Source: Synechococcus sp. Cruz-7E5
GTDB lineage: Bacteria; Cyanobacteriota; Cyanobacteriia; PCC-6307; Cyanobiaceae
Assembly (NCBI RefSeq): GCF_024345995.1
Contig: NZ_JAGQCE010000010.1
Location: forward strand, 1-64,000
Length of the DNA stretch: 64,000 nt
Direction of reading: 5' to 3'
Below the pieces are notes generated by a model, which was not told where the DNA came from, made no database searches, and saw only the letters and a program-made list of their open reading frames with translations. Position 1 is the stretch's first letter, and every line of letters begins with the position of its first letter. Both the position numbers and the translations under genes were made by a program. This document shows positions 7,709-64,000 of the stretch, in pieces.

Positions 7709-7717
7709 TTCGATCTG

Positions 7718-8300
7718 CTACACAAAGTCTACGGGGCCGTTCACGCGCAGGGGTCCACGGTTTAACACATGGGTGAAGATCATGGCGTTGCTCACATCCT
7801 GATGGCCCAGCAATTCCTGGATCATATGGATATCCTTGCCACGCTCCAGCAGGTGCGTGGCAAGGGATGGATCGATGTGGTGCCTGCCATCGGTTCGATC
7901 CTTCCGATCTCAGCAGCGGCGAACCTGCGGAACTACCCATTGCCAAGCCCACTCTGAAGCTGCGGTGGCCTCAGCTGCCTGGATTGACAGTCCACATCCT
8001 CAATCCGGAGCCGCAACGCATCCATCAACTGCAAGCCACTGCCGTACAGCAACTACGCCAAAGCTTCTCCACACCATCGAGGCGATCGAGCGCCGCCCAG
8101 CACCTTCCTGCATAGAAACAACGATGCCGCCAGCGCCTGGTTCTGCGTGTAGGCACTCACCTGACCCAGCGTGGCCAGATGCGTCAGAAATGCATTGAGC
8201 TCCTGCGCGACGCCCAGCAGCACGTTGCACCTGGGAGCGAAGTGGGTCGGATCGAACTGCCAGCAGGTGCCGCAGTCGATGCCGCTGGCATCCACTCGGA
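7718..8300 (-). pseudogene. Integron-type tyrosine recombinase (IntI-like) remnant
   Basis: Fragments in three reading frames line up in order with an integron integrase. From 5' to 3': ELNAFLTHLATLGQVSAYTQ then NQALAASLFL (N-terminal SAM-like domain), LDRLDGVEKLWR, LYGSGLQLMDALRLRIEDVD (catalytic Arg region), and [20 protein letters not shown] plus [20 protein letters not shown] with the final His and Tyr boxes. The C-terminal part ends with a proper TAG at 7718-7720. The catalytic domain is shortened between the Arg and His boxes and at least two frameshifts are present, so the gene is dead. XerC/D proteins share the boxes, but the FLTHLA...STQNQAL-like N-terminus and the THVLNRG ending are those of IntI. 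Confidence 0.75.
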
Positions 8301-50576: not shown

Positions 50577-51053
50577 ATGTTTGAACTGATTCCCTACGAG
50601 AAGTTCCGGGACACCCCGGCTGTGCGCTTCTTCGACATCACGGTGCCCACCTCCAACGCCCGGGATCTGGTGGTGCATACCGGTCCGGCCGTGAGCCCCC
50701 CAGACGACCCTGAGACCGGTGCCTGGCAGTTCTACCTCCATCCCCACCAGGAGGACAACCTGCTGGCGATGCACGGCGGCCGCACCTTCTTTCTGGTCAA
50801 CCTGGGCTGGAACTACCCCTTCCACATCGTCCGCCTCGACACCGGTGGCGACATCCTGCGCATCCCTCCCGGCACCTTCCACCGCTCGGTCTCCGACCCC
50901 GATGGCTCACTGGTGCTCAACCAGGCTGTGCGCGAGAAGGGGGCCTCGCTGGTGCGTGAGTTCCGTGTCTACAACAGCCACGACATCCCCCGGCTGTTCG
51001 CCGTCACCAGCCAGACGGCGCCCCTGCCGAAGCTGCACGGCGTGAGCTGGTGA
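50577..51053 (+). CDS. Cupin-fold protein of unknown substrate
   Basis: A 158-residue single-domain protein. The cupin-like core is HPHQEDNLLAMHGGRTFFLV (His-x-His ... and strand) followed by GGDILRIPPGTFHRSVSDPD, where RIPPGTFH holds the second-motif His. It lacks the classical Glu spacing of cupin motif 1. It is short, cytoplasmic and alone, the last chromosomal gene before the island boundary. The ATG at 50577 is chosen because conserved-looking sequence begins MFELIPYEKF. Confidence 0.6.
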   Translation: MFELIPYEKFRDTPAVRFFDITVPTSNARDLVVHTGPAVSPPDDPETGAWQFYLHPHQEDNLLAMHGGRTFFLVNLGWNYPFHIVRLDTGGDILRIPPGTFHRSVSDPDGSLVLNQAVREKGASLVREFRVYNSHDIPRLFAVTSQTAPLPKLHGVSW

Positions 51054-51065
51054 AGAACTGAATGA

Positions 51066-51113
51066 TGGGGGTCGCGAGGATCGAACTCGCCTAAGGCGGA
51101 TTATGAGTCCGCC
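51066..51113 (-). tRNA. 3' tRNA fragment (CAU anticodon), island attachment core
   Basis: Read on the minus strand, 51113 to 51066 gives an anticodon arm GGCGGACTCATAATCCGCC (loop CTCATAA, anticodon CAU), a short variable loop, a T-arm GCGAGTTCGATCCTCGC, and the 3' acceptor strand GACCCCC plus discriminator A. The 5' part is missing: upstream sequence does not form a D-arm or a GGGGGTC acceptor strand. This is what a tyrosine recombinase leaves at one end of an island inserted in a tRNA 3' half. The intact gene (Met or lysidine-modified Ile2) should lie at the other end of the element or elsewhere. Confidence 0.75.
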
Positions 51114-51149
51114 CTGACCCATTGCAGCACAGCACTTCTGAGGGGCTAT

Positions 51150-51188
51150 GTGCCTAGCCGGTGCCTAGCAGCGGACTAATCGTGCCTA
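51150..51188 (+). repeat. Three phased GTGCCTA direct repeats
   Basis: GTGCCTA occurs at 51150-51156, 51161-51167 and 51182-51188, so spacings are 11 and 21 bases, one and two helical turns. They lie about 40-75 bases inside the tRNA fragment. Arm-type integrase or excisionase binding sites look like this. The function is inferred. Confidence 0.55.
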
Positions 51189-51212
51189 ATTTGTCCGCCT
51201 CATTGCCCCAAA

Positions 51213-52481
51213 TCAGCCCTGGCGACGGGGCCACAGGACACCCGCGCCAGGCCGCACCGGGCCACCCTCAACGGGGCCTGGCTCGATCACCTCGCCCTGG
51301 CTCTCCAGCAGATCGACCGCAGCCTTCCGCATCACCCGGTGCTGGTAAAGGGCCGCCATCGCCGCGTAGGGCTGGCTGCGGGCATCGCTCAGGTCGGCAA
51401 AGCCGCCACTGACCACCGGCATCTCGAACAGCGCAAGCGCCGTCGTGCGAGCACGCCAGGCAAAGTCCGTGAACGAGGTCCAGCCAGCCACCGCTGCAGG
51501 CAGCGCCGCCGTGGGGAAGCTCACCCACCAGTCAGGGCTGACGCCACGGCCCAGCTGGAACAGGCTCCTGCCATCCACCAGGTCGATGCGGCCATGGACG
51601 TGCATGTTGCGTCCCGGGTAGGTCGTGTTATTGGTGTCCACCGGGCCGATCCAGAACGGCGCTGGCAGGCAGAGGGGGTTCGGGTCCACCGTGTCGCTGT
51701 AGCTCGGTGCGCCCGAGGTGGGCGTGAGCACCCTCGATTCAGGCAGCAGCGCCACCCGGCTCAGCAGACGCTGGTGCAGCGCACTCACCGTGGCGAACTG
51801 AAACGAAGGCCTCACCGAGGTAATCCGGCCCAGCCGCCCAAGGCGATTGGGCGCCATTCCCTGCAGCTGCCGCAGGCACACCGTCCACAGCCCGCTGGCC
51901 CCATCACGGGCCAGCAGGAAGGTCCAGGGGTTCGGGTTCTGATGCGTGACCATCGGGGCGGCAGCAGCATCACCGCAGAACAGGAACCACTCCGCCCCCG
52001 GCGTTGTGTCCTGCGCGAACACCAGCGCCGATGCGCCGGCCTGGGCCTGCATCGAGTCGCACACCACCGAGGCCGTCACCTCTGAGCCGCGCAGGTCCCA
52101 GCGCTGCCACTCAGACGAGCCACCGAAGGTGGTGCTCATCGCCCCGTAGCCATCGTTCCCCGTGCCGTTGTCGTAGAGCGAGCTGTGGCCGCCATGGCAG
52201 GTGACGGACGACGAGTCCTCAGCGGTGGTCGATTGCGTCCAGTACCAGATCCAGCTCTCGATCGGCCCGCCGAAACGCAGCACCAGGCCCCGCCTCACAC
52301 CGGCTGTGGAACTGCTCGGCTGCCGCAAGAGCGTCAACGGCTGGTCCGCATTGATCGGCGCCGCATTCACCGTGGCGATGAACGCAGAGAGCCGCTCGAT
52401 CAGCAGCGGGAATGGATCAGTAGCTTCCATGCCGCGCCAGTTGAGCGACGGCAGCAGCTTCACTCCGGCGCTGGTGCTCAT
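51213..52481 (-). CDS. Virion-associated protein, tandem paralogue A
   Basis: A 422-residue protein without a family I recognise. It is clearly a paralogue of the next gene: RLSAFIATVNAAP, RRGLVLRFGGPIESWIWYW, FAQDTTPGAEWFLF, PWTFLLARDG, PFWIGPVDTNNTTYPGRNM and the C-terminal GPVRPGAGVLWPR all have counterparts there at the same order. It is beta-rich by eye. It is the last gene of a coupled set running from the collagen-like fibre, so a receptor-binding or tail-tip accessory role is likely. The start at 52481 overlaps the preceding gene's stop by 4 bases. Confidence 0.65.
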   Translation of the reverse strand: MSTSAGVKLLPSLNWRGMEATDPFPLLIERLSAFIATVNAAPINADQPLTLLRQPSSSTAGVRRGLVLRFGGPIESWIWYWTQSTTAEDSSSVTCHGGHSSLYDNGTGNDGYGAMSTTFGGSSEWQRWDLRGSEVTASVVCDSMQAQAGASALVFAQDTTPGAEWFLFCGDAAAAPMVTHQNPNPWTFLLARDGASGLWTVCLRQLQGMAPNRLGRLGRITSVRPSFQFATVSALHQRLLSRVALLPESRVLTPTSGAPSYSDTVDPNPLCLPAPFWIGPVDTNNTTYPGRNMHVHGRIDLVDGRSLFQLGRGVSPDWWVSFPTAALPAAVAGWTSFTDFAWRARTTALALFEMPVVSGGFADLSDARSQPYAAMAALYQHRVMRKAAVDLLESQGEVIEPGPVEGGPVRPGAGVLWPRRQG

Positions 52482-53719
52482 GTGCCTGCCCCCCTGGGCC
52501 ACAGCACCCCAGCGGCAGGCCTGCCACCACCTTCTCCACCAGGGCCACCATCACCAGGGCCGCCCTGCTGCTCGAGCAGCTCGATGAACGCCGCTCGCTG
52601 CAGCGGATGCAGCATCGCCTGCGCCGCCGGTACGTAGGCCGCCTGATCCGTGCCGTTCAACGGCTGGATCGTGTCGTACTCGAACACCGGCAAGCCATCC
52701 ACCAGCACCAGATCGGTCATGCCAGCTGTCCAGCCGCTGTAGGCCGAGAACGTCGTCCAGCCCGAAGCCGTGGGCACAAGCGGCAGATCAGCCAGCTGGA
52801 CCTGCAACCAGGTCATCTGGAACCAGGGCCGGCCGATCAGGAACAACCTGGAGCCATCCAGATCGATCGTGCGGAACTGCTGCAGCAACCTCTCTGGATA
52901 GGCCCAATCACTGCCGGTGGTGGTCCTGCCCATCCAGAAATCAGGCGGCAGCGGCCACAGCCGCTCACTCACACTCACCACACCGGCCGCCGTGCGGATG
53001 TTGCTGCTCACCACCGCGCCGCGGGCCGCGTAACGCGCCAAGCCAAACGAACCAGACAGCGACAGCGTGCTCGAGCTCAGTGCCTCGTAGTGCAGCTGAG
53101 TGTTCAGCAGGCAGCCGACCGGGGTTGTGCCCGGGAAAAGCACGCACCAGCCATCGGTGCCGGGCTGGCGGAACAGCAGGAAGGTCCACGGGCGGCCATT
53201 GGCCTCACCGTTCGGATCGAACGGCATCACCGTCGAATCCGCATGGAACAGCCACCACTCCGCCCCAGGCGTCGTGTCCTGCGCCCAGAGCAGCACCCCA
53301 GGCGAGCAGGAGCTGGGAATCATCACGCTGCCGCCCCCGTTGCGGCAATCAACCGCCGGGTCCGTCGCGCTCACGTTCAGCAAGCTGCCGTAGCCACCGT
53401 TGCTGCCGTCATCGAGCCAGTTCTTGGCACGACCCACCAGCAGCGTCGGGGTTTGCCACAGCTCCACCGGATGGACCCAATGGAGCACCCAGTCCTCCAG
53501 CGGCGTTGATAGCCGCAGCACCATCCCCCGCCTCACATCAGTGGCGTCGGTGTTCCGCTTGAGCACCGCCAGTTGGCACGATTCGTTCCCTGGTGTGGCA
53601 TTCACCGTGGCGATGAACGCCAGGAGGCGAGAGAAGAACTGGGAGTACGCGGCGGAGCCGCCGCTGCTCTGCCAGTCCAGCGCAGACGAGGTCCGCACTC
53701 CCGCCAGCATCACCGTCAT
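52478..53719 (-). CDS. Virion-associated protein, tandem paralogue B
   Basis: A 413-residue protein paralogous to the one downstream: RLLAFIATVNATP, RRGMVLRLSTPLEDWVLHW, WAQDTTPGAEWWLFHAD, PWTFLLFRQPG, FWMGRTTTGSDWAYPERLL and the C-terminal RPAAGVLWPRGAG. It ends with a glycine-rich linker (GGPGDGGPGGEGGG). The ATG at 53719 (MTVMLAG) overlaps the preceding gene by 4 bases. No signal peptide. Function is inferred only from its place among fibre-like genes. Confidence 0.65.
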   Translation of the reverse strand: MTVMLAGVRTSSALDWQSSGGSAAYSQFFSRLLAFIATVNATPGNESCQLAVLKRNTDATDVRRGMVLRLSTPLEDWVLHWVHPVELWQTPTLLVGRAKNWLDDGSNGGYGSLLNVSATDPAVDCRNGGGSVMIPSSCSPGVLLWAQDTTPGAEWWLFHADSTVMPFDPNGEANGRPWTFLLFRQPGTDGWCVLFPGTTPVGCLLNTQLHYEALSSSTLSLSGSFGLARYAARGAVVSSNIRTAAGVVSVSERLWPLPPDFWMGRTTTGSDWAYPERLLQQFRTIDLDGSRLFLIGRPWFQMTWLQVQLADLPLVPTASGWTTFSAYSGWTAGMTDLVLVDGLPVFEYDTIQPLNGTDQAAYVPAAQAMLHPLQRAAFIELLEQQGGPGDGGPGGEGGGRPAAGVLWPRGAGT

Positions 53720-54627
53720 GGCGGCGGGATCAGCACAGCCAGATTGCCGCCGACCGTCACGCAGAACTGTCCCACCGGCAGCCCCTCGACCTGGGCCGTC
53801 CACAGCGGCGCCGAACGGGCGCGCGCCAGAAACTCAGACGGCAAGATCAGCGGCGCTTCCAGGCTCACCGGCCCGCTCTGGTGCGCGTAGGTCGTGGAGT
53901 TCACCAGCACAGGCCAACCAAAGTGATTGGTGAGCACCGGCTGCCACAACCACTGCGTTGTGAGGCGGATCAGTTGACGGAAGCCCGGTGCGATCGCTCG
54001 ACCCGTCATCATCGTGCAGCCATTCTGCAGATAGCTCATCACCAGCCACTGGCCTTCTGTGATCTCGCGAGTGATCAGAAACAGCAGGTTATTCTGAAAG
54101 CCGCCAGAGCTGACCATCGACATTCCGAAATACTCCTGGCCAGCGATCTCACCTGAGAAGATGAAGTAATCCTCCAGGTGCGGCGGGTTTGGCCCTGCGG
54201 TTGGGCTGAGCTTATTGTTCAGCCCAGTGGTGTTGCTCGTGATTGATGCAATTGAGCCACCGCTATCAGTCGTGACGGTCGTATAAACCACCCCATGCAC
54301 GCCCCGCGAGGTGTCCAGCGGGTCGTAATCCGCTGCGCGTCCGAACCACACATCAAAGCGGTTCTGGCGGTCCACCACCGGGCACAGCGGCCCGCCGGCC
54401 AACATCTGGGCCACCATCGGGCTGTACTTGTTCTCGAGCCGCAGCGTCCAGCCGCACCAGGCTGAGTCTTGCGCTGGTTCCTTGAGCACTGTGATTGGCT
54501 GCAGCGGGTAGCGCGGGTTCACCAGATCGAGCCACGCCTGCAGCTGCGGCGCAGCGCGGCGGGCCAGATCCGGCCAGTCCAGGGTCGGCCCGGCCGGCGG
54601 CAGGTTGTAGAGGGTCGCCACCATCAA
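53716..54627 (-). CDS. Virion-associated protein, tandem paralogue C (divergent)
   Basis: A 303-residue protein with weaker similarity to paralogues A and B: LQAWLDLVNPRYPLQPITVL aligns with their FIATVNA region, WCGWTLRLENKYSPMVAQML with RRGxVLRL, and DYFIFSGEIAGQEYFGM with the TPGAEWxLF region. The C-terminus ends VGQFCVTVGGNLAVLIPPP. It overlaps the neighbours by 4 bases on both sides, so A, B and C are translated together, suggesting a fixed stoichiometry. Confidence 0.6.
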   Translation of the reverse strand: MMVATLYNLPPAGPTLDWPDLARRAAPQLQAWLDLVNPRYPLQPITVLKEPAQDSAWCGWTLRLENKYSPMVAQMLAGGPLCPVVDRQNRFDVWFGRAADYDPLDTSRGVHGVVYTTVTTDSGGSIASITSNTTGLNNKLSPTAGPNPPHLEDYFIFSGEIAGQEYFGMSMVSSGGFQNNLLFLITREITEGQWLVMSYLQNGCTMMTGRAIAPGFRQLIRLTTQWLWQPVLTNHFGWPVLVNSTTYAHQSGPVSLEAPLILPSEFLARARSAPLWTAQVEGLPVGQFCVTVGGNLAVLIPPP

Positions 54628-55040
54628 TCCACCAACACGACGGCATCAATCGCCAGCACCGGCGTCACGAGGCCCGTCTGCTCCACACGCAGCCGCGCCA
54701 GCATTCGGTTCTGCGCTGGCACCTCCGCATTGGAATAGCTCGTGCCAGGCGCCAGCCGGAGCACTCCACCACCCAGCGTGGGGAAGCGCACGTCAGCGAC
54801 CACCCCACTGCCCGGCTCCGGGTCTTGATTCACAGGCCGCAGGTTGTCGGCCTGATAGGCCGCCTCGGAGTTGTAGAGCGTGATCCAGCTAGCCACATTC
54901 GTCGTGATCGCCTGCACCAGTGCATCGGAGCCCAGCTCATCGAACGCCAGCATCACCACCGCCGGTCCCACCGTCTGGCCAGAGACGATCTCCTGCAGCT
55001 CGCGCCGCGGTCGATCGATTCGCGCGACCCAGCTCGGCAT
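54624..55040 (-). CDS. Small structural protein of the island
   Basis: A 138-residue protein, no family recognised. FDELGSDALVQAITTNVASW, ITLYNSEAAYQADNLRPV and GGGVLRLAPGTSYSNAEVPA suggest a beta-sandwich of the kind seen in tail accessory proteins. Its ATG shares one base with the stop of the collagen-like gene (TGATG) and its stop overlaps paralogue C, so it lies in one coupled transcript. Confidence 0.55.
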   Translation of the reverse strand: MPSWVARIDRPRRELQEIVSGQTVGPAVVMLAFDELGSDALVQAITTNVASWITLYNSEAAYQADNLRPVNQDPEPGSGVVADVRFPTLGGGVLRLAPGTSYSNAEVPAQNRMLARLRVEQTGLVTPVLAIDAVVLVD

Positions 55041-56308
55041 CAGGGGATCACCGCCACCTTGCGGATCGCCCGGGTCTGCTGCGCAAACGTCTTGCTGTTG
55101 CCTTCCCAGTTCCCGTAGAACCAGTCCTGCAGGATCACCTGTGTCGCTGAGTTCTGCGTCGAGGTATTCATCTGGCCGTCAAAGAACGCCTCGGCACCAC
55201 CCAGCACAAACGGAGTAAACGCCGTCAGGCCAGGTACTGACAGCGTGTAGTTGGTGGTCGGAGGAACCGCGTGAGGATTGGTGCCATAGGCATCATTGTT
55301 CCCCTCATCGGAATTCGGCTTGAAGCTGCGATAGAGAATCTCCAGCTCATACAGCGCTGGCACATACCAATCGGTGTAGCCACCGATCGTGAGCGCCCGC
55401 GCCCATTGATTCGCCGGATGGGTTGCATCCTTGCTCGCCTCGCTGTTGGCGTAACCGTCGAACATGCTCGCGCTGCCGCTCGATGCGGTGTTCGAGGTCT
55501 TGGTTGCTTTCGAGCTCATGCCCGTGGACTTCGGAGCAATGATCAGCGCGTGGGTGGCCACACCATTCGCGCTCTGGGAAATCAAGCCGCCATAGATGCC
55601 GCCCTCAAAGGCAGCACCGATCGACGGCAGGCTGCCGATCGGGTATCCGCTTAGCACCGTCAGTTTGTAGACGTTCCCCGTCGCCGTATCGAGGTACATA
55701 TCCCCATCGATCTGGCCGGGGATGTCCGGCGGCGGGGCACCAGTGCCCACGAACCAGCCCGTGCCGCGGCTTCCCGCCGCGCCAGCAGGGCCGGCCGCAC
55801 CGACCGGGCCCTGAATTCCCTGGGCCCCGGCTGGCCCAGTGGCACCAGCGGGTCCGATGGCCCCGGCGGGGCCCGTGACTCCGGCAGCTCCAGCTGGGCC
55901 AGTTGGGCCAGCAGGGCCGCTGATCGAGCCCGCATCCACCCAGGTGGTTGTCTCGGTGTCCCAGACGAACAGCACATTGGTGCGATCAGGCGGCACCGTC
56001 GCGACGACGTAGGCATCACCATCGAGCTGGCCACTGCTCGGCAGGTTCGCCTGCAGCGCCACATTGCCCTTGAGGTTGATGCCGGTGCCCGCTGCACCCT
56101 GCGGGCCGGTCGGACCGGCGGGACCGACAGGGCCAGCACTTCCGGCTGGACCGGCTGGGCCGGTCCCCCCGGGATCACCAGCCGGTCCAGCATTTCCCTG
56201 GGGGCCGGCGGGTCCTTGAGCGCCACCAGGTCCAGAGGGTCCGACTGGTCCGATTGGTCCAGGGCTGCCCTGAGGGCCAAGCAGAGAGCCGGTGTTATTC
56301 CAGGGCAT
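55040..56308 (-). CDS. Collagen-like tail fibre with C-terminal Lcl-type domain
   Basis: A 422-residue fibre protein. Residues 10-75 and 133-185 are Gly-X-Y repeats (for example GPAGPAGSAGPVGPAGPTGP), which would form collagen triple helices. They are separated by a small beta module with GQLDGDAYVVATVPPDR, the pattern of tail-fibre linker modules. A second module, GSRGTGWFVGTGAPPPDIPG then QIDGDMYLDTATGNVYKL, precedes the C-terminal domain (about residues 225-420), which has WARALTIGGYTDWYVPALYE and LEILYRSFKP, as in DUF1566/Lcl adhesin domains. Receptor binding is the likely role. It is the first gene of the coupled set and probably has a promoter in 56309-56400. Confidence 0.85.
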   Translation of the reverse strand: MPWNNTGSLLGPQGSPGPIGPVGPSGPGGAQGPAGPQGNAGPAGDPGGTGPAGPAGSAGPVGPAGPTGPQGAAGTGINLKGNVALQANLPSSGQLDGDAYVVATVPPDRTNVLFVWDTETTTWVDAGSISGPAGPTGPAGAAGVTGPAGAIGPAGATGPAGAQGIQGPVGAAGPAGAAGSRGTGWFVGTGAPPPDIPGQIDGDMYLDTATGNVYKLTVLSGYPIGSLPSIGAAFEGGIYGGLISQSANGVATHALIIAPKSTGMSSKATKTSNTASSGSASMFDGYANSEASKDATHPANQWARALTIGGYTDWYVPALYELEILYRSFKPNSDEGNNDAYGTNPHAVPPTTNYTLSVPGLTAFTPFVLGGAEAFFDGQMNTSTQNSATQVILQDWFYGNWEGNSKTFAQQTRAIRKVAVIP

Positions 56309-56869
56309 CGAGGGCGAGGTCCCGCGTCACTTCACCATCTATTGCCATCACATCCAGCTACCCGAATCTCTCTCTGCTGATCAGAAGAGTTGATAGCTCG
56401 TTCTTTCCATCAACCGGAAGGCACGATCACTCATAGGGTCTGGGCCACTGAGGGAACACATGAAAACTTGCCAAGCACCTGCGTAGATCGAGCAGGACAT
56501 CCACACCATCCAGCATCTGATGTGCAATCAAGGCGTAGAAACGACCAAGATCAATACCTGTTCTCGATCGTGGACCGCTTGGGGTCAGCGGCCCAGCAGA
56601 CATTGTGTAGCTCCATGATCAAGTGGTTCTCGGGTCCGAGAACCACGGCCAAGCTTGTAGAGGTAAATCTGAAAGCTTTTGATGCGACTAGGCTCTTGCC
56701 ATGCGCCCAATGCCCTTGAGCCGTGGTTCGAGGAAAGAGGTGGACATTCAGCGGTGGTTCACGGAAACCATCCAATAACAAGTTGGGCAGACCAGAAAGA
56801 AAGATTATGCCCGGCAGCGTCCATAGAAGACTTGCCAAGCTAAGCTAACAATAACTGCCCATCTAAGAA
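56309..56869. other. AT-richer intergenic stretch with an 11-bp hairpin
   Basis: About 560 bases without a recognisable gene, separating minus-strand fibre genes from plus-strand cargo; promoters for both directions should lie here. It contains the hairpin at 56623-56646 (arm GTGGTTCTCGG, loop GT), related to the palindromes at 7.6 kb. A GTTGGGC at about 56785 would fit the attC-type R' core, but the required palindromic partner upstream is weak (GCCCAAT near 56706). Confidence 0.5.
56623..56646. repeat. Hairpin sharing its arm with the 7.6-kb palindromes
   Basis: GTGGTTCTCGG pairs with CCGAGAACCAC over 11 bp with a 2-nt loop. Nine of these bases per arm (GTGGTTCTC/GAGAACCAC) are identical to the palindrome at 7679-7708, the only other such pair I found in the window. 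Confidence 0.75.
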
Positions 56870-57274
56870 ATGCAGGATTTAGTAACTCAGGCCTTCTCGG
56901 CGTTGCAACATTCACCGCCAGCAGTTACTGGACTCTTGTCAGGGATTCTCGGTGCTTTTGTTGCAGACTGGTCGAAGTGGGGCTTTGAAAGCCGCCGAGA
57001 TCGCCGAGAAGCCAGGAGGAGACTCATAGAACAAGCGAGAAGTGTTTTGGCTGAACCACCCCCTAAGAAAGACTTCAGGGAGACGTCACTATATTTTCAA
57101 CTTTCGCCTCATCTTCTTGCTACAACAAGAGCAAAGATGACCAACACTCTATTGCCCGACGGCACGGAGGCTATTGAAATTGTGCTATGCGGCAGCAGTG
57201 CGGTTGCGAATCCATACGCTGATGCGATACTGAGAGATCTTGTGACTTTGGAAAGAAAATGGGGGCTGATCTAG
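56870..57274 (+). CDS. Small unknown cargo protein with N-terminal hydrophobic helix
   Basis: A 134-residue protein with no family that I recognise. Residues 15-35 (SPPAVTGLLSGILGAFVADW) may be a membrane or amphipathic helix, followed by a strongly basic-acidic helix (ESRRDRREARRRLIEQARSV). The C-terminal half looks globular (TEAIEIVLCGSSAVANPYAD, AILRDLVTLERKWGLI). Base use is AT-richer than the flanking virion genes. No good ribosome site precedes the ATG. An attC-like sequence begins about 40 bases after its stop, so it has the layout of a gene cassette. Confidence 0.5.
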   Translation: MQDLVTQAFSALQHSPPAVTGLLSGILGAFVADWSKWGFESRRDRREARRRLIEQARSVLAEPPPKKDFRETSLYFQLSPHLLATTRAKMTNTLLPDGTEAIEIVLCGSSAVANPYADAILRDLVTLERKWGLI

Positions 57275-57655
57275 TCTTTGAATAGCTTCATGCAGCCTTC
57301 CTGTGCTGAACGACAGCCCAACAACCCACTCCAGCCGGCGGGATATCATTACTCCTGTATTCAAGAAAGAAGATCAGCCCATTACTCCCTCCCGCGGCTG
57401 AGTGGGAGCGCTGTAATGATTTATGAATCTATGCATATCGAGCGCGCCAATAACAGCAAGATTACTAAAGCGTCTGCCCAGCGCCTATGTGGCATGAGGG
57501 TTTCAGATCATGGCTGCCTCTTATCACCAGATAGTTCATGGAGTGGATAGGTTAGTGGCGAGCAACTCTCACAACCATCCTATTGCATGTGGGCATCCGC
57601 TTGATGTCAGATAGATGAAGATTGATCAAACACTAACAACCCAAGGAGATTCGAG
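57275..57655. other. Intergenic stretch with haloperoxidase leader
   Basis: About 380 bases. The left third holds the attC-like palindrome described separately; the right part leads into the haloperoxidase gene, whose ribosome-binding site AAGGAG is at 57643-57648. No convincing gene is present. Confidence 0.5.
57316..57420 (+). repeat. attC-like imperfect palindrome, degenerate
   Basis: GCCCAAC at 57316-57322 matches the R'' core (RYYYAAC). The arm CCCACTCCAGCCGGCGGGA that follows is the near-perfect partner of TCCCGCGGCTGAGTGGG near 57390-57406, differing only by two bases left unpaired on one arm, which is the hallmark of folded attC sites. The right-hand R' core (GTTRRRY) is not conserved, so the site would be inactive. 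Confidence 0.4.
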
Positions 57656-59539
57656 ATGCCACAACCCTTCCCAAACTCTGACGAGAATCTCGTCACCACT
57701 GCTCATCCCTTCATCGGCAATTTCCACAAGACGCTGCCGCATGACGATTATGGCGAAGTCATTCCCGAGGCGTATCGCAAGTTCGAACGTACCTGCCTCG
57801 CGATCGAGGCGGGAATGCCGATCAACTTTGAGGAGGTTCCCGAGGGACAGTTGGTACTCACGGCGCAATCATCATTTAATTCGCAGGCGGCAGCGGCACT
57901 CACCGGCACCGTGGCACGCTTCACCAGCCCGCTGGCCGGCGCCGCGACGGAGGCACACGGCCCTGATCCAAAGGCGATGGAGATGCTGCCCGCACCGGGC
58001 TGCCTTTCCATCAGCACGGCCGCCGAAATGTCGGAGGTTTATTGGATGGCACTCCTGCGCGATGCCCCACTGCTCGCTTTCCAGGTCAACCGAACGCCGC
58101 CAGCTGCGGGCTGTGCAGACATTTCCGCGCACGACGTTGAACTAGGTTTCAATGTCACCAATCGAGTCGAGGATGCGCGCAAGTGGGTCAACATTCTGTT
58201 CGATTGCGCTGTAAGGCGCGACACCGACCCCGGCAAGCTGCGCGCACCGCTAGATGTTGACGCTGGCTCAGGCGGTGCTGACATTCGGCTTCAGACGCTG
58301 TTCCGCAGCGGATTGGTGGATGAAGAATTCGGTCCTTTGGTGAGCCAGTTCTTCATTCGCCCGATTGGCTACGGCACGCAGACGATCGATCAAAAGCAGT
58401 TCCCCTATATCGCAAAGCGCGATTTTCTCATCACGCATGGTGACTGGCTTCTGGCTCAGAATACCGGCAAAGATGTCTACGGTCGCGACTACGCAAATTG
58501 CAATAACTATTCTGATCAGTTAAATCGTGGCGCTTCTTATTACCCGGTTGATGGGAGTGGTCAGCCGGTCAAGCGCTACATCTCGACCATGCGCGATCTC
58601 GCTCGCTTCGTGAACCGCGATGCGTTGCATCAGGCCTACTTCAACGCCGCGCTCTTTCTCGACGGAATCCGCGCGCCGCTTGACGCGGGCAACCCATACC
58701 GTGGAAACCGTTTCAGCCGCGAAGATCCTTTCGCCTCGCTCGGCGGCCCGGATTTGCTCACGCTGGTGTCTGAGGTCGCCAGCCGTTCGCTCAAGGTCGT
58801 CTGGAGGCAAAAATGGCTGGTACACAGGCGTGCGCGGCCCGAGGTCTACGGCGGTCTTGTGCAAATGCAGCGCAAGGGTTACAACGGCGTCCCACGCCAT
58901 TATGGGCTGCCGACGACAGCTGCAGCTTGCCCGAATTTCGACGACGCCATCGACGCAACGCTTGCCGCTGTCGGCATGCACAACCAAGCGATGAACGGAG
59001 GTACGGAGACCTTCTTCCTGCCGATGGCGTTCTCCGCAGGCTCTCCAGCTCACCCCGCCTATGGCGCTGGGCATGCCACAGTCGCGGGTGCGTGCGTTAC
59101 CACGCTGAAGGCCTGGTTCGATGAGGATGCGAAACTTGCCGATGTTTTTGCCGCTGCGAATGCAGCCGCCTCCGTTAGCATGACCGCGCCCAAGGATCCT
59201 CCTGGTGGCGAACTGAAACTGCTCCAGCCTGGCTATCGCAGAGTCGGTTCAGATCTCGATGCCTTCTGCGAACCCATGGAGTACTCAGGTGGCGATGCCA
59301 GCCGAATGACTATCGGAGGCGAGCTCAACAAGATCGCCAGCAACGTGGCGATGGGTCGTTCGATGGGCGGTGTGCACTGGCGCTCTGACAACACGCGCAG
59401 CCTGCGGTTGGGGGAGGCGATTGCTATCGAAATCCTGCGTAAGCGCACACTCGAATATGCAGAGCGTCCTGTCTCATTCACCTTCCGTGCGTTCGATGGG
59501 CACATCGTGCGTATCGCCAATGGTCAAGTCCAGACGTAA
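57656..59539 (+). CDS. Vanadium-dependent haloperoxidase (bromoperoxidase type)
   Basis: Oxidises bromide, iodide or chloride with hydrogen peroxide, giving hypohalous acid. Seen: 627 residues, the length of algal-type bromoperoxidases. The vanadate pocket is in place: KWLVHRRARPE (Lys and first Arg), SPAHPAYGAGHATVAGAC (His, with Ala where algal enzymes have Ser in SGH) and GRSMGGVHWRSDN (second Arg and the vanadate-binding His). No signal peptide is seen at the N-terminus (MPQPFPNSDENL). AAGGAG lies 7 bases before the ATG. A 13-bp hairpin follows the stop. It is on the opposite strand to the virion genes on both sides and AT-richer, so it looks like cargo. Similar enzymes are known in a few marine Synechococcus. 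Confidence 0.9.
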   Translation: MPQPFPNSDENLVTTAHPFIGNFHKTLPHDDYGEVIPEAYRKFERTCLAIEAGMPINFEEVPEGQLVLTAQSSFNSQAAAALTGTVARFTSPLAGAATEAHGPDPKAMEMLPAPGCLSISTAAEMSEVYWMALLRDAPLLAFQVNRTPPAAGCADISAHDVELGFNVTNRVEDARKWVNILFDCAVRRDTDPGKLRAPLDVDAGSGGADIRLQTLFRSGLVDEEFGPLVSQFFIRPIGYGTQTIDQKQFPYIAKRDFLITHGDWLLAQNTGKDVYGRDYANCNNYSDQLNRGASYYPVDGSGQPVKRYISTMRDLARFVNRDALHQAYFNAALFLDGIRAPLDAGNPYRGNRFSREDPFASLGGPDLLTLVSEVASRSLKVVWRQKWLVHRRARPEVYGGLVQMQRKGYNGVPRHYGLPTTAAACPNFDDAIDATLAAVGMHNQAMNGGTETFFLPMAFSAGSPAHPAYGAGHATVAGACVTTLKAWFDEDAKLADVFAAANAAASVSMTAPKDPPGGELKLLQPGYRRVGSDLDAFCEPMEYSGGDASRMTIGGELNKIASNVAMGRSMGGVHWRSDNTRSLRLGEAIAIEILRKRTLEYAERPVSFTFRAFDGHIVRIANGQVQT

Positions 59540-59558
59540 CTCAACATTCGCCCAGCAA

Positions 59559-59598
59559 CCGGTTGCAGCGGCGGCGGAATGCCGTCCGCTGCAACCGG
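59559..59598 (+). terminator. Strong hairpin after the haloperoxidase gene
   Basis: CCGGTTGCAGCGG at 59559-59571 pairs exactly with CCGCTGCAACCGG at 59586-59598, loop 14 nt with partial further pairing. It starts 20 bases after the stop. No T-run follows, and the flanks (GCCCAGCAAC on the left, AACGTTCC on the right) resemble a degenerate attC, so both readings are possible. Confidence 0.5.
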
Positions 59599-59610
59599 AA
59601 CGTTCCAGCA

Positions 59611-59865
59611 TCAGTAAACATCATCAGAAGTGAACGCCACAACCCGCACAGTGCAAGCCTGAACGATCTGCTCCCAGTGATGCGTGGTGATCCCCAGCCG
59701 AGCCGGCACCTCATGAGCTGAGATTCCATGCAGCAGCAGTTTCTGGCCCCGCGCATGAAGCTCCCGCCAAGACGGCGGCAGCTTGAGCAGGAAGCCGTGG
59801 TCCCTCAGGAAGTGGCTGATCTCCCCATTGGCGTAGGAGCGCATAGTCACGAAGGCTGGAGCCAA
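59611..59865 (-). CDS. Small island protein, unknown
   Basis: An 84-residue frame starting MAPAFVTMRSYANGEISHFL. It may be longer: the frame is open upstream to about 59940 (for example HDRLQHATLALIKAGPVDSA) but without a usual start, so a TTG, or a frameshift near the palindrome at 59990, must be considered. The middle segment ISAHEVPARLGITTHHWEQI resembles a helix-turn-helix. I do not recognise a family. Confidence 0.4.
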   Translation of the reverse strand: MAPAFVTMRSYANGEISHFLRDHGFLLKLPPSWRELHARGQKLLLHGISAHEVPARLGITTHHWEQIVQACTVRVVAFTSDDVY

Positions 59866-59989
59866 TGTCTGGGCGGAATCGACGGGGCCGGCCTTGATCA
59901 GGGCGAGGGTGGCGTGCTGGAGGCGATCATGCGGGTCGACCAGGGCTGCAAGTCAGCCGAGACGGCATCGCGGGAGGCCAAATGCATTT

Positions 59990-60023
59990 CCTGCAACAAG
60001 TGGCGGCCGCCACTTGTTGCAGG
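59990..60023. repeat. 34-bp perfect palindrome
   Basis: CCTGCAACAAGTGGCGG is followed directly by its exact reverse complement, with no loop. It lies between two minus-strand island genes, about 60 bases after the stop of the 60085-60336 gene. No T-run follows. It could be a protein-binding site, a recombination site or the trace of a template-switch event. Confidence 0.85.
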
Positions 60024-60084
60024 CGCGTTTGCGCTGACGGGAGGCCGGGCCACGGGGTGATGGGCTGCTGGGGGCTATTGAGGC

Positions 60085-60336
60085 TCAGGTCAGCACCCAG
60101 GCGCTGCCGCTCCAGCGCCGGGCGGGTTTCACGATCCAGGCGCCACCGATGCGAACGCGTACCGGCTTGAGCGCCCAGGCACCGGCGATCCACACGGAAA
60201 GCAGGCCGCCACCCCCCGGTGGCTCAGCCTCGATCCCGAAGAACTCATCAGTGACGATCTCCCCGGCCGGCCCCCGGTCCCAGCGATCGGAACCACCCGT
60301 GAAGGGCAGGCGAGGATCGCGGACGTCACGGGTCAC
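60085..60336 (-). CDS. Small tail-type protein with repeated Trp motifs
   Basis: An 83-residue protein. The C-terminal half repeats a short beta unit: VWIAGAWALKPVRVRIG, GGAWIVKPARRWSGSAWVL. Such GxWxxKPVxV units are common in virion tail or fibre accessory proteins. It starts 3 bases after the stop of the upstream structural gene and so is probably coupled to it. The precise role is unknown. Confidence 0.5.
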   Translation of the reverse strand: MTRDVRDPRLPFTGGSDRWDRGPAGEIVTDEFFGIEAEPPGGGGLLSVWIAGAWALKPVRVRIGGAWIVKPARRWSGSAWVLT

Positions 60337-60339
60337 AGC

Positions 60340-61152
60340 TCAGCCAGCCGCGAAGCGCACGACACCCTTGGCCACTCCGGTGGTCGTGGTCGTGCAGAGC
60401 TGGATCAAGGCCAGGCAGGCGTCATTGGCAATCTGCGGCAGCCCGAGGCTCGCCCAGTCGAAGACCTCCGCCTTGCTCGCCACCACCGTGAAGAACCCGG
60501 CGCGGTAGCGGCTGCAGGTCACGCCGAAGTTCCCGGCGGTGCCGCTCGTGGCGCTCAACTGCACGCTGTTCACCGCCTTGATGCCAGATTTCCCGGCCTC
60601 GGGGAGGATCTGATAAAGGCCGCTGGCGCGGCTGGTGGCCACCATCGGCACCACCACGTTGCCGCTGGACTCATCGCTGTAGGTCACGGCCACCGTCGCG
60701 TTCACCGCCGTTGTGCCCGTGTCTGAGTACCACTCAAGCCACCACTGCATCTGGCTGTGATCCGCCGGGCCGATTCGCTCTGCAGGAACCCCGGCAAGAG
60801 TCAGCGGCAGGTTGGTGGTCTGCAGGGTCGCCACATTGCCCACCAGGCCACCCTGATGGCAGAGGCGATCGTGGATCTCCAGCGTGGCCGTCGCCAGGCT
60901 GGTGGCCACATCCACCCAGGCCATGTAGTTCGCCAGCGGCAACACCTGGTTCTCGAAGGGGAGAGCGCCCAGCAAGGCCTTGGTGCAGACCGCCGCCGCC
61001 GTAGGGATCGCACCCTGCCCGGGCTGGCCGGTGGCCCGCCAGAGCGAGTAGAAGCGCCCTGCAACGGCGTTCGCCAGAGAAGCCTTGTCGAACAGCGCGT
61101 GGCGGGAGTTCGCCAGCGCGGCGATCAGCTGATCGCGGGAGGTGATTGCCAT
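60340..61152 (-). CDS. Island structural protein
   Basis: A 270-residue protein, no family recognised. It begins with a helical segment (SRDQLIAALANSRHALFDKA) and continues as a beta-rich protein (VNATVAVTYSDESSGNVVVP, SVQLSATSGTAGNFGVTCSR). This plan is seen in virion decoration and tail proteins. It lies in tight order with its neighbours, 2-3 bases apart, on the same strand. No membrane segment or signal. Confidence 0.55.
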   Translation of the reverse strand: MAITSRDQLIAALANSRHALFDKASLANAVAGRFYSLWRATGQPGQGAIPTAAAVCTKALLGALPFENQVLPLANYMAWVDVATSLATATLEIHDRLCHQGGLVGNVATLQTTNLPLTLAGVPAERIGPADHSQMQWWLEWYSDTGTTAVNATVAVTYSDESSGNVVVPMVATSRASGLYQILPEAGKSGIKAVNSVQLSATSGTAGNFGVTCSRYRAGFFTVVASKAEVFDWASLGLPQIANDACLALIQLCTTTTTGVAKGVVRFAAG

Positions 61153-61154
61153 GG

Positions 61155-61361
61155 TCAGTTCGTGTCGATCCAGAGGTCACCGCTGGAGGGATTAGGCGGT
61201 GGGGTCGGCCCCACCGTCAACCGAGCGACATCGAGCTTCTGCGCCAGGGCCTGCTGCAGGTCGCTCTGATCGCCGATGGCGCCTGTGATCGCACCCCACG
61301 CAGCAGCAGGGCCAGGTGGTCCCTGGATCGAGTTACCGGTGGCGTCCCAGCCCATGCCCAC
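61155..61361 (-). CDS. Small fibre-linker-like protein
   Basis: A 68-residue protein. AAWGAITGAIGDQSDLQQAL matches the tail-fibre repeat usually written WGxITGxxxDQxDLxxAL, and the C-terminal SSGDLWIDTN is the start of the module seen in the fibre genes here. The short collagen-like patch GPPGPAA precedes it. It could be a truncated fibre or a separately encoded trimeric linker. Confidence 0.5.
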   Translation of the reverse strand: MGMGWDATGNSIQGPPGPAAAWGAITGAIGDQSDLQQALAQKLDVARLTVGPTPPPNPSSGDLWIDTN

Positions 61362-61402
61362 CTGGGGTTACGCCAGCTATTGCCATTGACCAGCCCCTGC
61401 GC

Positions 61403-62191
61403 TCAAGTCATCAGCTCGTAGACCCTGCCGGCCACCCGATCGAGATACAGGTCGCCTGGAGCCGGAGGCGGCATCAGACCGATGCTCGGCGGCGGCCCAT
61501 CGCCCGAGTACCAGCGGGTGCCGCGGCTGGCCGCGCCCGAGCCGTACATCGCCACCAGCGCAGGCTTGCCGTCCACCGGGCTCGGCAACAAAGCCAGCCC
61601 GCCCTCCGGATGCAACCGCAGCCGCCACACTTCCGTGCGGCTGCCGTTGTAGGCCAGGCCGTCGATGCCATCACCCGGCACCAGGGGCTCGATGCCAGCA
61701 AGGCCACCGCCAACGGGGCTGCTTGATCCAGACAGGCCGGCCTGCACCACACCCGGCAGCAGCGGGCAGCCGATCAGCGCCACGCTCAAGGCCGTGACGG
61801 TTAAGCCCATCGTCACCGTCACGGTCAGGTCCTGACGCTGCAGGTAGATGTGGCGAACAGCGGGCACATCAGGCCGGTACGGAGTCCAGGGCACGGTTTC
61901 AGTGCTCCCGTCCCCCCAGCTCACATCAAACGATTGCGGCGGCACCCCTGAGGGGTTCACGAGCAGCTCGATCGCTGTGCTGCCGAGCGGATCGTTCCAG
62001 CGCGTCGGCGCCGGCATCCAGAACAGCTCCAGCACACCAGCGGGCACCGGTCCGAGCCGGTAGCCCAGCTCCAGCCAGCGCGGCACCTCGTGATGCAACG
62101 ACCACTCCTCACCGCCAGGGCAGCCGATGGGCGGAAGAATCCGCACACGGGCTTCCACACCATCGGGAGCGTTCGGCAGGGGGTAGGGCAA
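61403..62191 (-). CDS. Island virion protein sharing a module with the collagen-like fibre
   Basis: A 262-residue protein. Residues 80-130 resemble a PKD-like strand pair (SFDVSWGDGSTETVPW, RHIYLQRQDLTVTVTM). The C-terminal 40 residues, ASRGTRWYSGDGPPPSIGLM and PPPAPGDLYLDRVAGRVYEL, closely match a module of the collagen-like fibre at 55040-56308 (GSRGTGWFVGTGAPPPDIPG). This module probably forms a trimeric connector. Role: fibre or baseplate-spike component, by inference. Confidence 0.55.
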   Translation of the reverse strand: MPYPLPNAPDGVEARVRILPPIGCPGGEEWSLHHEVPRWLELGYRLGPVPAGVLELFWMPAPTRWNDPLGSTAIELLVNPSGVPPQSFDVSWGDGSTETVPWTPYRPDVPAVRHIYLQRQDLTVTVTMGLTVTALSVALIGCPLLPGVVQAGLSGSSSPVGGGLAGIEPLVPGDGIDGLAYNGSRTEVWRLRLHPEGGLALLPSPVDGKPALVAMYGSGAASRGTRWYSGDGPPPSIGLMPPPAPGDLYLDRVAGRVYELMT

Positions 62192-62206
62192 GGCGAGGCC
62201 CTCCGC

Positions 62207-62911
62207 TCAGATCAGATCCATCGGAACGGTGGGCAGGGCCTCATCACCCGCAGGGGCCGCAGCAGCAGCGACAGCCTCGGCCTCAAGGCGGGTGGCCTCA
62301 GCCACCATCTCAGCCTTGGTCATGGAGGCGTCCAGCGTGACGCCGAACTCCACCACGCAGATCTCCCTGATCTCCGCCTTGGTCATCGCGGAGAAGTCGG
62401 TGGCGGTCGCATCAGGCCGAAGCGGCGCAACCGGCACTACCGGCTCTACCAGCGCGACCGGATCAGACGGAAGCACCGCTGCGGGCTCCAGAGCGTCCTC
62501 GAGCATGCGTCCGGTTTCATCCGCGCCCTCAGAAGGGGCCGAGTCATCGTCAGGCCCAGGGTCACCGCCACTGCCATCGTCGATCGACACCGGCGCATGC
62601 ACCTCCCAGCCATCACCAGCCCAGCCCGCGGCGTGGACGGGCCACACAAAGCGGTCGCTCTCGCCGCTCTTGGAGATGCGCAGCATCCCCTCGGGCGGCA
62701 GTTCGAGCACGGGCTGGTCAGTCGTCAGTTCCACGGGAATCGTCGGATCAGTGGGGCTGGTTGGATCGGTGGGCAGCTCAGGTGGCGTCTCCGGCGCGGG
62801 TGCCGTCGGCACCGTCGGATCAGTGCCGCCGCCATCGGGTTGAGGCGGTGCCCATGGCCTACCAGGTTTGGTCGGATTGAGCACCGGCAGGCCGGATTCA
62901 GGCTTGGGCAT
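62207..62911 (-). CDS. Acidic Pro-rich protein with two HeH/SAP-like helical motifs
   Basis: A 234-residue acidic protein. Residues 1-75 are Pro/Thr-rich (PETPPELPTDPTSPTDPT), followed by a short globular part (GMLRISKSGESDRFVWPVHA) and, near the end, two copies of a motif: MTKAEIREICVVEFGVTLDA and MTKAEMVAEATRLEAEA, as in HeH/LEM or SAP-like domains often found in small virion proteins next to capsid genes. It may bind DNA or capsid. Confidence 0.55.
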   Translation of the reverse strand: MPKPESGLPVLNPTKPGRPWAPPQPDGGGTDPTVPTAPAPETPPELPTDPTSPTDPTIPVELTTDQPVLELPPEGMLRISKSGESDRFVWPVHAAGWAGDGWEVHAPVSIDDGSGGDPGPDDDSAPSEGADETGRMLEDALEPAAVLPSDPVALVEPVVPVAPLRPDATATDFSAMTKAEIREICVVEFGVTLDASMTKAEMVAEATRLEAEAVAAAAAPAGDEALPTVPMDLI

Positions 62912-62919
62912 CTCTCACC

Positions 62920-63354
62920 TCACAGCTGCTCGGTGGAGGTGAGGCCCACATAGGCCCCATCAGGCGTGGAGGGCGTCAGCGTGGCCCTGGCGAAAGCAAA
63001 GGCAGGAGGCGTCACGTTGGCCGCATCAGCAGGTGCCACCGCCAGGCCCGCGCCTGAGATCAGCGTCTCCACCCGCCCGCCAGCGGCGGGAATCGCCACG
63101 CTGCCCGCATTCACGAAGGTGCCTACCGTGCCGTCCTTGAGCAGCGGCGCCACCTCCAGCTGCACCGTCACCGCAGCAGCGGCGCCAGGGTGGCTGGCCA
63201 CCAGCACAAAGCTGTTGGCGGCATCGAGCAGGGTGGTGAGCCGCACCGTTTCGCCGCTGACGCGGGTGCGCTCGAACGGGTCGGTGGCGTTGTAGTTGAT
63301 CCAGCCCACCAGGGTGGTGGCTGCATCGATCAATCGAGTGCCCGAGTGGGCCAT
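62920..63354 (-). CDS. Capsid-proximal structural protein (decoration-like)
   Basis: A 144-residue beta-rich protein: TRLIDAATTLVGWINYNATD, TVQLEVAPLLKDGTVGTFVN and AAGGRVETLISGAGLAVAP. It lies directly downstream of the capsid-like gene, where head decoration or head-tail adaptor proteins are usually encoded. No family is recognised by eye. No membrane segment. Confidence 0.5.
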   Translation of the reverse strand: MAHSGTRLIDAATTLVGWINYNATDPFERTRVSGETVRLTTLLDAANSFVLVASHPGAAAAVTVQLEVAPLLKDGTVGTFVNAGSVAIPAAGGRVETLISGAGLAVAPADAANVTPPAFAFARATLTPSTPDGAYVGLTSTEQL

Positions 63355-63414
63355 GGTCGTGTCCTCAGTGGAAAGGTGAACAGCAGCAAGGGAACTGACG
63401 GTGGCCGGTTGCCG

Positions 63415-64000
63415 TCAGGCGGCCATGGGGGCGACGTTGTAGAGCCGCCCGAGGGCGCTCTGATCCACCACGGCAAAACCCACGTACCAATCGACCCGGG
63501 TGCGGAACACGGGTGCATCCGGCACCTCGCCGAAGTCCCGCACGTTGATGCCGTAGCGACCCTCGAACGGTCCCTGCAGACCCGTCACAGCCTGGTCCCC
63601 GAGGACGGCCGCATAGATCGAGGTGGTGCCGCCGGCCTCGCCAAAGCCCAGCACCTCCTGGCCGGCCGCGTCCTTGTCCACGATCAGGATCTCGGCCTCC
63701 TGGAAGTAATGGCGGCCGTCGATCACCTGATAGAGATCACCACCGGCCTCACGGCTGAGGGTGCTGATCTGCCTGCGGCCGGCCTTGCTGGTGATCAGCA
63801 CCTTGTCGCCGCCATAGGAGTTGATCGAATCCAGCAGTGCTTCCAGCCTGGTGAGCACCAGGGAGGTGCCGCCGTTGTCGATCGTGCCCGCGCTGCCGGG
63901 GCTGCGGCGCTTGCTGAGGCCGTTGAAGGCCCGCGGGTCAAAGGTGGCGTCACCGTTGACGATCGCTGCTTCCAGGGTGAGGCGCATGGAGCGCACTTTC
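63415..64000 (-). CDS. HK97-like major capsid protein, C-terminal part (runs off the window)
   Basis: The reading frame is open at the right edge, so the N-terminus is outside. The visible 195 residues match the C-terminal part of HK97-fold capsid proteins: LEAAIVNGDATFDPRAFNGL (the INGDGTxxPxGI-like loop), LEALLDSINSYGGDKVLITS, GEAGGTTSIYAAVLGD, and the P-loop-like end FRTRVDWYVGFAVVDQSALG. A GTG near 63996 is not the true start. Its presence makes the island virion-encoding or derived from a virion-encoding element. Confidence 0.7.
   Translation of the reverse strand, partial: KVRSMRLTLEAAIVNGDATFDPRAFNGLSKRRSPGSAGTIDNGGTSLVLTRLEALLDSINSYGGDKVLITSKAGRRQISTLSREAGGDLYQVIDGRHYFQEAEILIVDKDAAGQEVLGFGEAGGTTSIYAAVLGDQAVTGLQGPFEGRYGINVRDFGEVPDAPVFRTRVDWYVGFAVVDQSALGRLYNVAPMAA

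Follow-up and report, generated by a model that had tools for sequence, protein, structure and literature searches.

How did a gene for a vanadium-dependent haloperoxidase come to lie among the structural genes of a phage, and what might it do there? The question is raised by a stretch of 64,000 nucleotides from Synechococcus sp. Cruz-7E5 (contig NZ_JAGQCE010000010.1, here C2, positions 1 to 64,000; hereafter the window), in which the haloperoxidase gene (VBPO) occupies 57656..59539 on the plus strand. At the level of sequence, comparison with related genomes established three points: the VBPO is cargo within the virion operon of an element of tailed-phage type, whose family has multiple copies in the genus; it belongs to a small platform made of a relic integron integrase (intI) end with an attI-like site, the cargo, and fragments of a sigma-factor and a portal gene, and this platform holds different cargo in another genus; and the element ends in a tRNA-Met repeat. 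The explanation that we judge best, and fairly probable as a whole, is that the VBPO is prophage cargo carried in a swappable platform and encodes a functional haloperoxidase that aids the lysogen.

A haloperoxidase gene that interrupts a virion operon

The VBPO is an intact ORF of 627 aa whose ATG is preceded by AAGGAG, a putative ribosome-binding site. The ten sequence relatives in the PDB, led by 1qhb (E=4e-70), bear the name haloperoxidase or vanadium bromoperoxidase without exception. From an alignment of 23 window and locus sequences, AlphaFold gave a model (pLDDT 83.5) that matched 12 PDB chains at E<=0.001, all of them vanadium haloperoxidases, with 27–30% identity in the structural alignments; in sequence and fold, the likeness extends across the full enzyme. 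The Pfam family PAP2 stayed below threshold (16.2 bits versus a cut-off of 27.2), and an NCBIfam scan of the protein gave no match. K386, R394, H466, G472, H473 and R568 are invariant in 23 VBPO sequences and H574 is kept in 90% or more; with the pocket roles that we take these residues to have, the vanadate-binding Lys, Arg, Gly, Arg and His and the acid-base His are all present. A preliminary description of this DNA had proposed a complete bromoperoxidase-type gene with a vanadate pocket, and these results bear it out.

Among known enzymes, the vanadium bromoperoxidases of Corallina (1qhb, 1up8, 8vh0) and A. marina (5lpc) resemble the VBPO in fold and vanadate-pocket residues. Besides the 27–30% identity, the VBPO differs from them in being phage-borne, in Ala471 (Ser in Corallina, Ala in all rows of the pocket alignment) and in Trp383, which aligns with an Arg of 1qhb. 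Trp is found at this position in 7qvw, titled 'R396W mutant', and a change of this type reportedly favours chloride. Phosphatase activity also occurs in related folds, and the VBPO might have it too. Compared with its relative in locus L024, the VBPO differs at 135, 94 and 351 first, second and third codon positions over 620 codons: divergence mostly at third positions, as expected under purifying selection.

The VBPO runs against a single minus-strand operon and splits it between two genes, with the major capsid protein (MCP) gene, g144, g234, g262, g270 and fam13 on one side and the fibre gene, g138, g303, g441 and g429 on the other. The fam13-to-fibre gap measures 3777 bp here and 45, 81, 44, 80, 81 and 125 bp in six same-genus copies. 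Because the same operon is continuous in these six sister copies, the VBPO interrupts it. The six were those with g270, fam13 and fibre genes among the 13 other MCP places in the genus; of the rest, two lack g270 but have a fibre gene, four continue after the MCP gene with other genes, and one is a fragment. Two IMG/VR contigs could also be measured, with no gap in L055 and 989 bp in L051. About 0.95 kb of the gap in L051 (about 14200-15200) is extra sequence, perhaps other cargo. The location given by the preliminary description, between fibre genes (fibre at 55040..56308, minus strand) and a capsid block (MCP at 63415..64000, minus strand), on the opposite strand and in AT-richer DNA, was likewise confirmed: the GC content of the VBPO is 0.592, versus 0.63–0.68 in 1-kb windows covering the virion genes.

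Could the VBPO instead be a core chromosomal gene, with the virion genes on its two sides brought in by separate insertions? The preliminary description had itself raised this alternative. All that speaks for it is that two other lineages, L030 and L049, have a VBPO among genes that look by eye to be of housekeeping type. A close full-length copy occurs in one of the nine genomes of the genus, the present one; the other eight yielded a relative of about 32% identity in G008 and a match of only 38 residues in G004. In the family, matches at E<=1e-30 were found in 10 of 400 genomes, and VBPO and MCP occur together only here and in G291, there on different contigs. MCP matches were found in 54 of these 400 genomes, in 23 IMG/VR contigs and, within the genus, in five of nine genomes at 14 places (three in this genome, four in G004, four including one fragment in G006, two in G002 and one in G001). 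The operon is intact elsewhere, the flanks of the VBPO resemble sister-phage DNA, and the same platform bears other cargo in another genus (see below). By distribution and synteny, we reject a core gene as so improbable that it can be set aside.

The MCP gene continues beyond the window to contig position 64320. Its full protein matches PHROG_212 (major head protein, 8.8e-54), and the part in the window matches the NCBIfam epsilon15 gp7 MCP at 1.9e-20, just below its cut-off. Directly after it come g144 (62920..63354), g234 (62207..62911) and g262 (61403..62191), recognized by comparison with sister copies, then g270 (60340..61152; 68–81% identity in the six same-genus copies) and fam13 (60085..60336; same place in sister copies). 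Beyond the VBPO, the collagen-like tail fibre gene coll422 (PHROG tail protein, 1.2e-30, and tail fiber protein, 2e-26; Pfam Collagen) is followed by g138 (54624..55040; PHROG_9627, 1.4e-14, function unknown), g303 (53716..54627), g441 (52478..53803) and g429 (51213..52502), all on the minus strand. The last three keep their places in sister copies and have no Pfam or PHROG match, nor does g429 match any PDB sequence; g429 and g441 are paralogues (31%), and in sister copies one gene matches both. Next to the MCP gene lies a Fic gene (L002:16474-17577 = C2:64474-65577) that is 98% identical to a gene of G002:C23, where the adjoining MCP is only 74% identical; it is perhaps a recently exchanged cassette.

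A probable prophage with two arms

The element begins with a putative attachment site (51065..51112, plus strand), a 48-bp repeat of the 3' part of tRNA-Met(CAT). It is identical at 45 of 48 positions to C30:69938-69985, inside an intact tRNA-Met on contig C30 of the same genome, and with up to 8 mismatches allowed, the repeats occur nowhere else in the searched pieces of C2, C30, C4 and C9. Of six congeners, four cease to resemble the window at 51112 and two at 51051-51053, which places the break at the 3' part of the tRNA-Met or inside it. What follows this breakpoint in L180 is found in the present genome as C30:63965-69937, which ends at the intact tRNA-Met. The ORF after this tRNA matches phage integrases (PHROG_1, 1.7e-6) and has by eye a recombinase-type C-terminus; the C30 arm further has genes for a replication-initiation-like protein, TerL (4.6e-71), a sigma factor, the portal protein and the scaffold. 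The element thus shows the arrangement of a prophage: attachment repeats at a tRNA, one of which adjoins an integrase gene. From its left edge at 51065 it extends past the window, with an ArdC homologue at contig position 76.6 kb, and would be about 116 kb long if C30 and C2 abut (58.8 + 57.0 kb).

Head and packaging genes are spread over two contigs, TerL, portal and scaffold on C30, MCP and fibres on C2. Three observations argue against joining them: the capsid arm and the integrase-terminase-portal arm are on different contigs; the last 1500 bases of C2 and C30 have only short stretches in common and no overlap; and the ORF next to the tRNA matched only PHROG_1, Pfam detecting no integrase domain in it. 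Weighing these points, we regard the two arms as well supported parts of one prophage, and the island in the window as probably one of its arms. The preliminary description had spoken of cargo of a prophage-like or satellite element. Cargo it is, and a prophage is favoured over a satellite. A phage satellite without packaging genes of its own would agree with the 108-kb contig of the MCP gene, on which nothing matched a portal or terminase; the terminase, portal, scaffold and integrase genes on an arm with the matching tRNA-Met end, albeit on a separate contig, make a satellite quite improbable. We had considered the capsid module as a stand-alone satellite and set this aside once the C30 arm was found.

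Cyanophage P-SS2 has the MCP family in common with this prophage, at a low identity of 39.7%. An integrase, a sigma factor and tRNA-associated islands have been described for P-SS2 and a P-SS2-like relic prophage of Synechococcus RS9917 (PMC2784084); unlike the present element, neither is credited with a haloperoxidase in the accessible parts of that paper. In its accessible text, PMC6157547 describes lysogeny as apparently rare among unicellular cyanobacteria.

Two of 14 sister-region loci in a tRNA scan contained a tRNA, in both cases tRNA-Pro(TGG) (G000:C4:26034 and G006:C67:68644). Beside the capsid arm, C2:77310-99917 (L003, L004) has PADLOC matches to a UvrD helicase (GajB, 2.5e-29), a DruE-like protein of 2202 aa (2.8e-94), a type IIG restriction-methylation-like protein (9e-166) and a DrmD-like protein (2.5e-96). 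By eye, a similar block parts the capsid and portal arms in the copy on C4.

The platform and its exchangeable cargo

The DNA around the VBPO resembles a different part of the phage genome than the operon it interrupts, namely the sigma-portal region of sister phages. To its left, 56339-56536 resembles the stretch just upstream of the C30 portal gene (81% over 199 nt) and 56541-56786 the stretch upstream of the portal gene of G006:C28 (83% over 248 nt). To its right, on the minus strand, lie a 3' fragment of the terminase-adjacent sigma-factor gene of a sister phage (59598..59935; 88% over 342 nt to L143:8406-8744, 5e-115) and the leader and 5' fragment of a portal gene (59940..60080; 84% over 143 nt to L143:12875-13015). 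This L143 sigma-factor gene, which matches Sigma70_r2, is the one that adjoins TerL on C30. The switch from capsid-module DNA to portal DNA falls within CAATAG on the right (60075-60080) and within a putatively promoter-like box, TGGCAATAG, on the left (56339..56347, minus strand), as would result if a circle, or an equivalent exchange, had recombined at the TGGCAATAG box.

Across 34 sequences scanned, 18 of the 38 occurrences of the box lie <=260 nt upstream of MCP, g270, fibre, scaffold or portal genes. Counted by gene copies, an exact box precedes MCP in 10/32, portal in 4/19, g270 in 3/9 and scaffold in 1/1, so that many copies are without it. It was absent upstream of g144 (0/32), g262 (0/21), LDT (0/16), fam9 (0/14), sigma (0/13), ArdC (0/10), g429 (0/9), g441 (0/8) and g303 (0/1). 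The count of 0/14 at TerL is no test, since the query was a C-terminal piece, and fibre starts have no row of their own owing to low-complexity filtering. Because the box precedes part of the virion genes and the phage family encodes two sigma factors, it may be a promoter of these sigma factors.

Within the platform, the left border of the cargo bears traces of an integron. A relic 3' end of an intI gene (56468..56656, plus strand) can be aligned with the corresponding ends of intI genes in relatives. These relatives carry intact intI (the two scanned are TIGR02249, E about 1e-136), and some of them also attC sites, most clearly in L160 and L166. We had considered the conserved left flank as a known RNA: matches to Rfam lay far below the gathering scores, with none at gathering level in the window, and the flank turned out to be this relic. 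An attI-like site ending in GTT follows (56756..56784, plus strand). The attI-like block, ending ...CAATAACAAGTT, was found at 19 distinct places with up to 6 edits allowed. At nine gap-free places, mean column conservation is 0.95 before the GTT and 0.46 after it; the places were found with our own pattern, so conservation before the GTT is partly selection.

Free of this bias is the comparison with G058:C20, from another genus. Here the same platform is present at the same place, with 86% identity over 585 nt up to 56784; likeness is lost at the attI GTT (56784) and regained at 59611. In place of a first cargo gene, an ORF of 134 aa without Pfam match (56870..57274, plus strand), and the VBPO, G058 has a gene weakly like DUF697/EcsC and an ORF of 188 aa without match. 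A strong, terminator-like hairpin stands just 3' of the VBPO (59559..59598), and the right cargo border lies at about 59598-59611. In sequence terms, the platform acts as an integron border would. The fibre gene of G058 (L164:10377-11632) seems split into two frames, with ORFs of 211 and 237 aa, and this copy may be decaying.

The G058 platform also bears on the assembly. Mis-joining of same-genome phage copies around a VBPO contig might be suspected in a genome of 31 contigs with several related prophage copies; the flanks are only 81–88% identical to the genome's own C30 copy, and the same platform recurs in the same position in an independent genome. We consider such a chimera extremely unlikely.

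Is the VBPO, then, a true integron cassette, captured by IntI at attI and spread between bacteria in this form? It lies downstream of an attI-like site where cargo swaps, with the cargo inserted at the GTT, and the family does possess intact intI genes as well as attC sites. After the first ORF, moreover, we found by eye a degenerate attC-like hairpin (57317..57410, plus strand) whose R'', GCCCAAC, is the exact reverse complement of the attI core GTTGGGC; its R' is absent, and the 181-nt stretch that holds it folds with z -3.2. Our attC scans, which differed in stringency, missed this hairpin. The strict scan found no attC in the window, the loose one a single weak match inside the VBPO coding region, and neither found an attC after the VBPO. 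The loose scan gave 0 matches in 32 kb of control window sequence but returned several questionable matches in other loci, and it alone detected the top three attC sites of L166. In 27 other VBPO loci, there were three weak attC candidates in two loci, none bordering the VBPO, and no IntI, and these loci do not support the VBPO as a general integron cassette. The platform itself retains only the 3' intI relic, with no functional integrase. We therefore hold a true cassette to be unlikely.

Integron parts in prophages are known from phage-borne integrons and clusters of attC sites lacking integron integrases (PMC9892861, as far as its text is accessible); unlike these, the present platform has only the intI 3' relic and the degenerate attC-like hairpin. 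The string 'cyanobacteri' is absent from the accessible main text of that paper. A Synechococcus is among the integron hosts named in accessible parts of PMC3108266.

We next compared the platform with the place from which its flanks seem to derive, the slot between sigma and portal genes in sister phages. In 13 of 29 sequences these genes are adjacent enough for the slot to be measured: it is 462-7040 bp long and AT-rich in 11 of 13 (GC 0.47–0.56; the other two 0.61 and 0.67). Twelve slots have an ORF of 110 aa or more, and in seven of them the longest ORF runs antisense to the phage genes, as the VBPO does. Fifteen slot ORFs were located, of which 10 were scanned with Pfam and 9, from six slots, with PADLOC. 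Defence-type genes were present in three of the six slots: HEC-01A/B on C4 (1e-198, 5e-98), an AriA/OLD-like ATPase in L068 (5e-73), and on C30 a TIR-like protein (2e-9) together with an HSDR_N-type protein and a 440-aa protein without match. The L073 slot holds a DUF3800 protein and the L147 slot, by eye, transposase-like genes; PADLOC and Pfam recognized none of the slot proteins of G004 and G006. Prophage morons and defence hotspots of the P2 type are familiar cases of a fixed site with changing cargo. The present cargo differs from that of P2-type hotspots in being a halogenation or redox enzyme and not a catalogued defence protein. Because the platform has other cargo in G058 and sister phages have cargo slots, the VBPO is exchangeable phage cargo.

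Origin and possible role of the haloperoxidase

The nearest relatives of the VBPO (about 69–73% identity, among 27 named loci) are from Competibacter, Nitrosomonas, Nitrospira, Rubrivivax and another betaproteobacterium, and the marine setting assumed in the preliminary description finds no support in them. None of the 27 loci has genes of this phage family, the only one checked, and a fixed tie between the peroxidase and the element is not supported either. In a tree of 32 of 37 rows (the fragments L040 and L050 and the near-duplicates L109, L110 and L112 were dropped; several branches are long), the VBPO falls into a clade of ten (98/99) with seven proteobacterial or Nitrospira rows and the cyanobacterial L030 and L049, which are nested apart from it. 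Its sisters are Competibacter and Nitrosomonas (L024, L025), with support of only 88/78. This placement suggests that the VBPO was acquired from outside the family.

Enzymes of the same class occur within the family, in L030 (M. elabens), L049 (Synechococcus BO 8801) and a lineage of 33–38% identity (L113-L116); the first two species probably belong to the same family, and the family members L109 and L110 score as they do. Unlike the phage-borne VBPO, the L030 and L049 genes lie by eye among polA- and rhamnose-type genes, elsewhere in the clade, and L113-L116 form a distant clade. Pattern scans, which distant relatives could escape, found no relative in 50,697 phage records; in IMG/VR, the single VBPO protein gave 1 pattern match and the 23-row alignment 20, none of them a relative. 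Plasmid records contained relatives in 6 of 72,556, at 27–46% identity, with coverage of 80% or more in two. In the literature searched, which left out most subscription papers, neither titles nor abstracts reported a haloperoxidase or bromoperoxidase carried by a phage. Phage integrons and P-SS2-like relic prophages are already known, and the collections searched hold no phage haloperoxidase of this kind.

How would such a gene serve a prophage? Recombination at TGGCAATAG boxes would have brought in the platform from a sister phage, where it occupied the slot between sigma and portal genes. The lysogen would then make a working VBPO, translated from the gene's own ribosome-binding site and encoded opposite to the virion operon, and the enzyme would turn the cell's H2O2 and halide into hypohalite. 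This might help the lysogen by removing H2O2 or by harming competitors, grazers or incoming phage; a fitter host would in turn benefit the prophage, that is, lysogenic conversion. In its boldest form, a temperate cyanophage would use a hypohalite enzyme as a lysogenic-conversion weapon or shield, placed in a type of slot where sister phages can carry anti-phage systems, and an oxidant-based gene for chemical defence or competition would be spread by phages and exchanged at an integron-like attI. We put this forward as a tentative possibility.

Several results argue against a role for the gene. This genome has two further MCP copies, neither with a VBPO, and the eight congeners have no close full-length gene, so the VBPO may be a passing acquisition. 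A PADLOC scan of the VBPO returned 0 defence families, and the protein is not a catalogued anti-phage defence protein; three of the nine slot proteins scanned with PADLOC had neither a PADLOC nor a Pfam match. The gene could therefore be a neutral passenger, an acquired VBPO in an insertion-prone gap of a decaying prophage, of no use to phage or lysogen. That the VBPO occurs only once among the copies, that some sister genes are fragmented or have stops and that one slot holds transposase-like genes would all fit. On the contrary, the VBPO ORF is intact with invariant pocket residues, divergence mostly at third positions and a ribosome-binding site, and the virion ORFs of the window are open. 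A neutral passenger seems to us a doubtful but serious alternative, and we continue to prefer a functional haloperoxidase carried as prophage cargo.

Haloperoxidases tie microbes to organohalogen and H2O2 chemistry, and a VBPO on a mobile prophage would let viruses move this trait between cyanobacteria and would open its fitness value to test in lysogens that carry or lack the gene. The platform suggests a route of cargo exchange for cyanophages, by recombination at promoter-like boxes and swapping at the attI border, and places integron parts inside picocyanobacterial prophages.

Further integron parts were seen elsewhere. A second relic integron integrase (46–52% identity) with an attI-like site lies at 7572-8202 of the window, by its AT-rich first 8 kb; the strict scan found no attC there. 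L160 (14503-14592), L166, L157 and L158 are picocyanobacterial integrons with an attI-like site after the intI 3' end and attC sites. Finally, attI-like blocks also occur at L053, L056, L065 and L009, in phage contigs and in G004, beside MCP or portal regions.

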